NCBI GenBank assembly: GCA_002069965.1
Contig: MWCI01000027.1
Span: forward strand, 1 to 40,873
Source: Spirochaetes bacterium ADurb.Bin218
GTDB taxonomy: Bacteria > Spirochaetota > UBA4802 > UBA5550
Length of the DNA stretch: 40,873 bases
Reading direction: 5' to 3'
The notes beneath the pieces are model-generated. The model made no database searches. It was not told the origin of the DNA and saw only the letters and a program-made list of their open reading frames with translations. The translations under genes were made by a program, and so were the position numbers. Below are positions 17,799-21,317 of the stretch, one piece after another; the stretch's first letter is position 1; each line of letters starts with the position of its first letter.

Positions 17799-19163
17799 TT
17801 ATACCACAAGCATAAGATAAATATCACAAACATTGGTGCCAGTTGGCCCTGTTTTAAAAAGACCATTTATTTTTTCAAAAAAATGATAAGAATCACTTTC
17901 TTGAATAAACTTTTCAGGGACAAGACCAAAATCATTTGCTATACTGTAAAGCTCCATTGAGGCAAAAGCACCGGAAGCATCTGTAGGACCATCATTGCCA
18001 TCTGTTCCTGCTGCAAGGAAAAAAACTCTGCCATCAAGCTCAGAGCTTTTTCTTATATCGTTTAAAAAAGACAATGCCATTTCCTGACATCTGCCACCCA
18101 TTCCTTTTCCCTTTAATGTTACAGTGGTTTCTCCCCCTGCAATTATACAAATAGGTAAATCTCCATTGTTACTCCATCTACACAAATCCCTTGCAATGCC
18201 TGCAAAAAAGTGTGCAATTTCCCTTGCCTCTCCTGTGACCATTGAGGTTAATATATTGCTCTTAAAGCCAAGTCTACGGGCCTCCTGTGAAGCAGCAAGA
18301 AGTGCATGATAATTTGTCCCAATGAGTATATTTTTAACAGAATTGAAAATTGGACTGCCGACCTTTGGAGTCTCAGGGATTTCACCTTTAGCTCCTTTAT
18401 TAAGAATTTCCATAATATTTTTTGGCACAGAAGACTCTATACCATACTTTTCTATTATACCAATTGCATCAACAAAGGTAGACGAATCTGGAACAGTTGC
18501 ACCTGAGGCAATAACATCAAGATTATCACCAACCACATCGGATAAAATCAAACTTATACACGTTGCAGGGTAAATCATCTCAGCAAGCCTTCCTCCTTTA
18601 ATATTGGAAAGGTGCTTCCTGAGACAATTGATCTCATGAATCTCTGCTCCACAGGAAAGGAGAAGTCTTGAAAGAGATTGCTTTTCTGAAAGAGACACAG
18701 AGAGCTCATCGTTACTGTAAGGAGAACATAAAACAGCAGAGCCTCCACCTGATACAAGATTTATAACCAGATCACTCTCAGAGAGATTCTTCACCAAATC
18801 AATAACAGAGGCAGAGGCCTTGACTGAATTCTCATCAGGAACAGGATGACCTGCCTCAATGAGCTTAATCTTTTGCAATTTTTCCACATGGCCATATTTA
18901 ACTGCAACAACACCAGAATCAATCATTCCACCAAAAATATCCTCAATGGCAAGAGCCATTCTACCAGAGGCCTTACCCATACCTGTTACAAAAACTTTTT
19001 TAAAATTATTTAAATCTATTTCATGACGCTCTGTCTTTGTATCGATAATGAGCCTGTTATCTATAACTTTTAGCAATTCTTTAATCATCAAATAGGGATC
19101 AACTCTCCTGAGGCCTGCCTGAAAAATGGATTCAAGGATCGCAAAAGCTTTCTCATTATTCAT
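17799..19163 (-). CDS. Glycerate 2-kinase (MOFRL family)
   Basis: This 454-residue cytoplasmic enzyme phosphorylates D-glycerate to 2-phosphoglycerate with ATP. Family marks are GMGKAS (61-66), EAGHPVPDENS (103-113), SGGGSA (138-143), a GGETTV...GGRCQEMAL segment near 342-365 and the MOFRL-domain AAGTDGNDGPTDASGA near 383-398. The start overlaps the stop of the TPR gene by 4 bases, so the two are coupled. The GntP-type permease gene upstream could supply glycerate. Confidence 0.92.
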   Translation of the reverse strand: MNNEKAFAILESIFQAGLRRVDPYLMIKELLKVIDNRLIIDTKTERHEIDLNNFKKVFVTGMGKASGRMALAIEDIFGGMIDSGVVAVKYGHVEKLQKIKLIEAGHPVPDENSVKASASVIDLVKNLSESDLVINLVSGGGSAVLCSPYSNDELSVSLSEKQSLSRLLLSCGAEIHEINCLRKHLSNIKGGRLAEMIYPATCISLILSDVVGDNLDVIASGATVPDSSTFVDAIGIIEKYGIESSVPKNIMEILNKGAKGEIPETPKVGSPIFNSVKNILIGTNYHALLAASQEARRLGFKSNILTSMVTGEAREIAHFFAGIARDLCRWSNNGDLPICIIAGGETTVTLKGKGMGGRCQEMALSFLNDIRKSSELDGRVFFLAAGTDGNDGPTDASGAFASMELYSIANDFGLVPEKFIQESDSYHFFEKINGLFKTGPTGTNVCDIYLMLVV

Positions 19164-19911: not shown

Positions 19912-21317
19912 TTACATAAAAAAGCTTACAATCAAACATATAATAAAAGCAACCGTTCCTTCAATTGCAGTTGCAGTTGTATAAATCTTATATGCAATGT
20001 TTACAGGCATATTTGAAAACTGAGATACAACCCAGAAATAAGAGTCATTGGCATGGGATACAACCATTGAGCCAGCACCAATTGCTACAGTAGTAAGAGC
20101 GGGATTAAGCCCGAGAGTAGAAAGCAGTGGCGCCATAATTGAAGCAGTGGTAATAATTGCCACAGTGGATGACCCTTGTGCAGTCTTTAGTGCTGCAGAG
20201 ATTAAAAAGGGCAAAAATATACCAAGATTAAGAGTGCCAAGGTTAACCTTGATAAACTCAACCATTGGAGATCCTTGCAAAACCTTCCCAAAGGAACCCC
20301 CAGCAGCGGTAATAGCAAGAATAATTGCTGCATCCTTTATACCATGACCCATCCATTGATCAACAGCAGTTCCCAATTCGCTTTTTTTAACCAAAAAAAG
20401 ACTCACAATTACTCCAATCATAAGAGCAGTTACAGGATCACCTATGAAGTTTATAAATATATATGTTTTGCTATCCTTTGCGCCAAAGGGAAGACTTGGG
20501 AAAGCAGAAACAGACTTCAACAAGATAAGAACTATTGGAAGAATCAGAGGCAAAAAAGACATAAAGGTACTGGGGAGTTTGCCATATTTGTTTATTAAGT
20601 CAGAATAACTCTCCTCAACCTCTGGCTTTATATCATACTTTTTGCCAATAAAATTTGCCCATATCCACCCAGCAAGAGAGGCAGGTATTGCAGCAATCAG
20701 ACCTATTAAAATTACAGTTCCAATATCAGCCTGCAAAGCTCCTGCTGCTGCCAGAGGCCCTGGAGTTGGAGGAACCATTGTATGAGTTGCATACAAACTA
20801 CAGAGGATTATCTCTGTATGGCTACAAAATATGGAAGAGGAACCATTGTATGAGTTGCATACAAACCAGTAGAAAGAGCAACAGCCATGATAGCCATTGA
20901 TTTACCAGTCTCTGCAGATAAGGCCTTATTAAGAGGAGTGAGTATGACATATCCTGAGTCACAAAAGACAGGAATTGATGTAACATAACCTGCAATATTC
21001 ATCGCCAGAGGAGCCTGCTCTTTGCCAACAATTTTAAGTATAGCCCTTGTCATTGAAAGAGCAGCACCTGTTTTTTCCAGAATATAACCCATAATTGTCC
21101 CTGCTATGATGACAATACCAATATTGGCAAGAGTGCCACCAAAGCCATCTTTAATAGCCTTTATTACATCCATAGCTGGCATGCCTATGGACAAACCATA
21201 AATAAAGGCAATAAGAATTAGAACCACAAAGGCATTAATCTTTGCTCTCCCTGTTGCATAAACGATTAAAATAACCGCAATGAGGAGAAACAAAAGAGAC
21301 AAACCTCCTGAAACCAT
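19912..21317 (-). pseudogene. GntP-family gluconate/glycerate permease interrupted by a 68-bp insertion
   Basis: The N-terminal part (21317 to stop at 20808) and the C-terminal part (about 20796 to 19912) together form a GntP-type H+ symporter with many transmembrane helices. N-terminal GGTLANIGIVIIAGTIMGYI and C-terminal ISAALKTAQGSSTVAIITTA and GAGSMVVSHANDSYFW are family hallmarks. They are separated by a 68-bp insertion containing a second copy of the codons for LYATHTMVP. Removing exactly 68 bp restores a single 445-codon frame, a normal family length. GGAGG precedes the ATG at 21317. As written, the gene is broken unless the ribosome bypasses the insertion or the DNA reverts. Next to glycerate kinase, glycerate or gluconate is the likely substrate. 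Confidence 0.85.
20769..20866 (-). repeat. 30-bp direct repeat flanking a 38-bp hairpin-containing insert in the permease gene
   Basis: The 30-bp sequence at 20769-20798 recurs exactly at 20837-20866. The 38 bp between begin with a perfect inverted repeat TACAGAG / CTCTGTA (7-bp stem, 6-base loop, 20799-20818). The 38 bp are not found next to the other repeat copy, so this is not a simple tandem duplication. The 68-bp period shifts the frame. Confidence 0.9.

Follow-up and report, generated by a model that had tools for sequence, protein, structure and literature searches.

The window analysed here is the whole stretch of 40,873 nucleotides that makes up contig C27, one of the 160 contigs of a 3.03-Mb assembly (G000) of Spirochaetes bacterium ADurb.Bin218. 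It contains a permease gene whose reading frame is interrupted by 68 bp with a conspicuous internal structure, and the question raised by this locus is where those 68 bp came from and by which process they were placed inside a coding gene.

A 68-bp insertion breaks a gntP-type gene

Two open reading frames on the minus strand, 21317-20808 (169 aa) and 20796-19912 (294 aa), each match the Pfam family GntP_permease and constitute the two halves of a single split gene, which codes for a sugar-acid transporter of the gntP type. The gene contains two exact 30-bp direct repeats with a period of 68 bp and 38 bp between them (Table 1), confirming the frame-breaking insertion flanked by direct repeats that the original prediction had described. 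The perfect 7-bp inverted repeat (TACAGAG and CTCTGTA) reported within the 38 bp can also be read from the sequence. Removal of one 68-bp period, said to restore a permease of 445 residues, indeed leaves 445 residues plus a stop codon (1406 bp - 68 = 1338 bp), in line with the 446-codon frames of the orthologues.

Intact forms of the gene are found among relatives. The gntP orthologues in three genomes (G001, G002, and G007) are open frames of 446 codons without the 68 bp, and each keeps a single copy of the 30-bp stretch, sharing at most 28 of its 30 bases, with no insert. The empty site is thus present in three relatives. The exact identity of the two repeats in the broken gene suggests that the insertion is recent, and gntP is probably off in the cells that bear it. 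An RNA folding signal was detected at the insertion (z -2.9); since it derives partly from the copied sequence described below, this signal needs no function here. The neighbouring DUF4147/MOFRL gene, which presumably belongs to the glycerate kinase family, is listed in Table 1 for context only.

Table 1. Location of the gntP-type gene, its insertion and the isolated repeats discussed in the text.
Feature	Location	Strand	Repeat/insert (bp)	Basis
gntP-type permease gene, frame broken	19912..21317	-		ORFs, Pfam, 446-codon intact orthologues
Neo-repeat copy met first by gntP (duplicated target)	20837..20866	-		Exact repeat comparison, edge likeness
Neo-spacer, 38-bp insert (exact gyrA piece)	20799..20836	-		Assembly-wide search
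Second neo-repeat copy (duplicated target)	20769..20798	-		Single copy in three relatives
Neighbouring DUF4147/MOFRL gene (context only)	17799..19163	-		ORF + Pfam
Event 1, gntP unit	C27, 20769-20866		30/38	Repeat scan
Event 2 unit	C77:2352-2445		29/36	Repeat scan
Event 3 unit	C3:4560-4655		30/36	Repeat scan
Isolated exact 68-bp direct repeat	L055:1260-1817 (G000:C78)		68, with 422 between copies
20-bp repeat pair at minisatellite	C65		20	Repeat scan

The 38-bp insert exactly copies part of gyrA

A search of the whole assembly for the 38-bp insert, as recommended in the original prediction, returned one other copy, 100% identical, at C71:5919-5956 (G000). This copy sits inside gyrA (Pfam DNA_topoisoIV and DNA_gyraseA_C), and the insert, read in the direction of gntP, is antisense to that gene; the hairpin of the insert is part of the gyrA coding sequence. 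The surrounding stretch of gyrA is 81% identical in two genomes of the same genus, and the exact 38 bp were not found in their gyrA. The insert was thus most likely copied from the gyrA of its own lineage.

These results do not support the proposal of a tiny mobile hairpin element, given that the 38 bp occur only here and inside gyrA and that the hairpin is gyrA coding sequence. The same candidate, considered as a small mobile hairpin or MITE for all the units described below, was rejected since no dispersed copies were detected: insert 1 is found elsewhere only in gyrA, and inserts 2 and 3 are single.

Two further units of similar size occur in the same genome

A scan of about a third of the genome (1,034,150 bases) looked for isolated pairs of identical direct repeats, 20 bp or longer, whose starts were no more than 500 bp apart; low-complexity repeats, and repeats present a third time within 300 bp, were dropped before counting. 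Only five isolated repeats were retrieved, which places the gntP repeats far beyond chance, and three of the five had dimensions of 29-30 bp (repeat) and 36-38 bp (insert). Minisatellites on C5, C80, and C65 were set aside as tandem repeats. Scanned in the same way, loci from relatives amounting to 106,419 bases contained no isolated repeat pair.

The unit on C77 (event 2) splits a gene for an MMPL-type transporter into frames of 454 and 373 aa. This gene is intact in G002 (849, one open frame) and in G007 (812), both without the 65 bp, so that the empty site was found in two relatives for this event. The unit on C3 (event 3) leaves the reading frame unshifted: it lengthens a small helix-turn-helix gene, next to a primase gene, by 66 bp close to the beginning of the gene. 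Regarding the source of the inserted DNA, event 1 is an exact gyrA copy, and events 2 and 3 fit a spacer-length insert from other DNA in length. Neither insert 2 nor insert 3 has a second copy anywhere in the assembly or a source among viral contigs; among phages, no source was found for insert 2, and only partial matches (E 0.4) for insert 3. The duplicated stretches of the three events contain short inverted repeats with stems of 7, 6, and 5, whose background chances are 0.015, 0.050, and 0.164, respectively.

The units have the dimensions of type I-B CRISPR arrays

Contig C38 carries a I-B + III-B locus encoding Cas6b, Cas8b, Cas7b, Cas5b, Cas3b, Cas4b, Cas10b, Cmr4, and Cas1b. The arrays located beside the three closest cas1b relatives have 29-bp repeats and 35-39-bp spacers, with the exception of one 258-bp interval in L266 that contains no repeat fitting the pattern used. 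Among 51 arrays located in the vicinity of 80 more distant cas1 genes, repeats of 29-30 bp occurred in 48, and 1753 of the 1832 spacers counted (the six commonest lengths per array) measured 35-39 bp. The duplications of events 1 to 3 (30, 29, and 30 bp) compare with 29 bp in the arrays of the closest cas1b relatives. Repeats of 29-30 bp with inserts of 36-38 bp are thus of type I-B CRISPR dimensions. Adaptation by the type V-A system of the same genome was discarded as the cause, since its array on C34 (36-bp repeats, a spacing of 62-65 bp, and 26-29-bp spacers) does not fit the 29-30/36-38 units.

The I-B adaptation genes present in the genome are those for Cas4b and Cas1b. The I-B cas1 (L010:1-765, G000:C38) shows an in-frame loss of 51 internal residues with respect to three relatives and is cut by the end of C38 at codon 255. 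The residues that we take to be catalytic (Glu, His, and Asp in conserved motifs) are present despite this loss; the shortened Cas1b may be inactive now, mis-assembled, or altered. With C38 ending within cas1, no I-B cas2 or leader was found in the genome. Two pattern searches revealed no I-B array of the genome's own among the first matches listed, which reached contigs C11 and C35, nor did another pattern, which suits 30-bp repeats and largely misses the 29-bp type of the relatives. In the third of the genome that was fetched, no near match to the repeats of the relatives appeared, the best of the GT-starting sequences examined agreeing at 20 of 29 positions.

The target sites resemble leader-repeat junctions

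The three closest cas1b relatives all have a leader whose last bases are ACGG, followed by a repeat that starts with GTTT. When each duplication is oriented so that it starts with GT, the units on C27, C77, and C3 have the edges ACTG/GTTT, ATGA/GTGT, and GCAG/GTCT (the slash marks the edge), which match ACGG/GTTT at 7, 5, and 5 of 8 positions. The sum of these junction scores has a P of ~1e-5 against random genome sites, taking the best of both strands, in a window chosen after the sites had been seen; across twelve junction windows, including the chosen one, P ranged from 5e-6 to 0.016. The match to the full-length repeats of the relatives, in the same direction and register, is weak (5-7, 13-14, and 12-13 of 29). 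With a window defined post hoc, the three target sites thus resemble the leader-repeat junction of the arrays of these relatives.

A similar unit inside cas1 of Alicyclobacillus contaminans

The same repeat scan, applied to 80 control loci totalling 691,921 bases, yielded 12 pairs, 11 of which looked on visual inspection like pieces of short or degenerate I-B arrays. The twelfth pair (30/37) lies inside cas1 of Alicyclobacillus contaminans DSM 17975 (L228, 6884-6980). The insertion shifts the frame of cas1, with loss of the normal end of Cas1 and fusion of cas1 and cas2 in a 453-aa frame; a related Alicyclobacillus locus (L225) encodes a normal Cas1 of 331 aa. The upstream edge of this unit, AACTGG/G, agrees at six of seven positions with the end of the strain's own leader, AAATGG/G (P 0.0025); junction windows that extend further into the repeat are unremarkable (P up to 0.21). 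No source of the insert was found among phages or viral contigs.

As a separate observation, the end of contig C38 (L010:1) falls at the VSYRRII codons of cas1, the same conserved stretch that was hit in A. contaminans. This shared position may reflect coincidence or a mixed population at that site.

Off-target spacer integration as the probable origin, and its alternatives

The interpretation that we consider highly probable is that the 68 bp in gntP result from an off-target (non-canonical) integration of a CRISPR spacer by type I-B machinery. The type I-B Cas4-Cas1-Cas2 proteins would have taken up 38 bp of gyrA from the same cell and joined them to both strands of the 30-bp gntP target, at its leader-like upstream edge and at its far side. 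Gap repair would then have doubled the 30 bp, giving rise to a one-spacer neo-CRISPR unit (repeat-spacer-repeat) and shifting the gntP frame. The gyrA copy, the doubled target, the empty site in relatives, the two further units of these dimensions and the presence of a I-B locus are direct observations; Cas1b as the agent, the timing of the event, and inheritance of the unit rather than an assembly error are inferred. The original prediction was right in recognizing an insertion that disrupts the frame of a permease gene which is normal in other respects, but missed the gyrA origin and the 30/38 anatomy of a CRISPR unit. The gntP unit is probably not a working source of guide RNA, because its full-length match to I-B repeats is poor and a guide against gyrA would target the cell itself.

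A more far-reaching scenario, which seems unlikely, is that the I-B adaptation complex of this lineage behaves as an insertional mutagen. A Cas1b lacking 51 internal residues but retaining those of its presumed active site would be relaxed in its choice of sites, and the complex would scatter spacer-sized fragments of self and foreign DNA throughout the genome, into genes at junction-like sites, generating frame breaks that are reversible by way of the 29-30-bp repeats. As the scanned third contains three units, the whole genome would perhaps hold about nine.

Capture of filler DNA is improbable as an explanation. According to it, a double-strand break in gntP with overhangs of ~30 nt was filled in, trapping a stray piece of gyrA at the junction of the ends, which accounts for the copied gyrA piece and for the duplication at one site, but gives no reason for three 29-30/36-38 units with junction-like edges. 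An assembly or library artefact, in which chimeric reads or graph errors put gyrA sequence into gntP, is very improbable. The division of the assembly into 160 contigs speaks in its favour; against it, a mis-join alone does not double the target, and the genome holds three units of nearly equal dimensions that fit a CRISPR type present in it. Furthermore, because a similar unit occurs in the assembled genome of a cultured, named strain (A. contaminans), a metagenome artefact is disfavoured as a general cause.

It is hardly credible that the element is a built-in device, whether one for translational bypass, as in T4 gene 60, or an on/off switch maintained by selection and operated by repeat slippage; the original prediction put forward both bypass and slippage. 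A hairpin-bearing gap is indeed flanked by matching sequences, and direct repeats can recombine, but the element is absent from three aligned orthologues, its hairpin is gyrA sequence, and two other genes carry units built alike from unrelated sequences. What can be retained of the proposed reversible off-state is that deletion between the 30-bp repeats of gntP could in principle restore the gene; such a reversion may be an unselected by-product, the orthologues without the element disfavouring a selected switch.

Relation to known systems and significance

Off-target spacer integration is a known reaction that has rarely been documented. Nivala, Shipman and Church reportedly described, in 2018, putative cases that had arisen naturally, one set in Yersinia pestis and the other in Sulfolobus islandicus. 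What is notable in the present genome is the number of units, the self source and the breakage of genes. The bypass element of T4 gene 60 has matching take-off and landing codons; it is similar to the gntP unit in that both place a short hairpin-bearing insert in a coding gene, with matching sequence on either side, whereas gntP contains a 30-bp duplication instead of such codons, the insertion is missing from three aligned orthologues, and the insert is a gyrA copy.

As described in papers citing the original experiments, off-target integration is known from E. coli under overexpression of Cas1-Cas2. Judging from these secondary accounts, the events share with those reported here a spacer-sized fragment outside an array, a doubled target of repeat size, and sites resembling the native locus. 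The present case differs in concerning type I-B and an unforced natural genome, with three units in a third of it, one known self source (gyrA), and two units that break transporter genes. In the literature covered, which included few subscription journals, no account was found of the units described here or of any natural off-target integration by type I-B. With a canonical type I-B array, the units have in common the dimensions of repeat and spacer. In contrast to such an array, they contain one spacer each, their repeats are unlike one another and match I-B repeats poorly, and the gntP unit lies inside a coding gene with no adjoining leader or cas genes.

If the proposed integration is correct, the errors of CRISPR adaptation are frequent enough to disrupt ordinary genes in a natural genome; several events in one such genome, together with one in the cas1 of another species, would extend a sparse natural record. 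It would also provide a signature that can be searched for across genomes, namely a doubling of 29-30 bp, an insert of 35-39 bp, and a leader-like edge, from which the cost of keeping an adaptation module and the frequency of self-DNA uptake could be measured, and which would show if units of this sort can give rise to new arrays.

Other features of the CRISPR and repeat regions

Some additional features were noticed in the same assembly. The gene cas12a (L011:7801-11600, G000:C34) is present in two overlapping frames of 147 and 1133 aa, which suggests a frameshift close to its start. The contig that starts with type V-A repeats (G000:C76) carries, at L012:3454-4343, a second cas1 remnant of 174 aa and a cas2 gene. 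Finally, minisatellite-like tandem repeats with periods of ~60 and ~65 bp occur at L050:996-1360 (G000:C5) and L057:6628-6890 (G000:C80).
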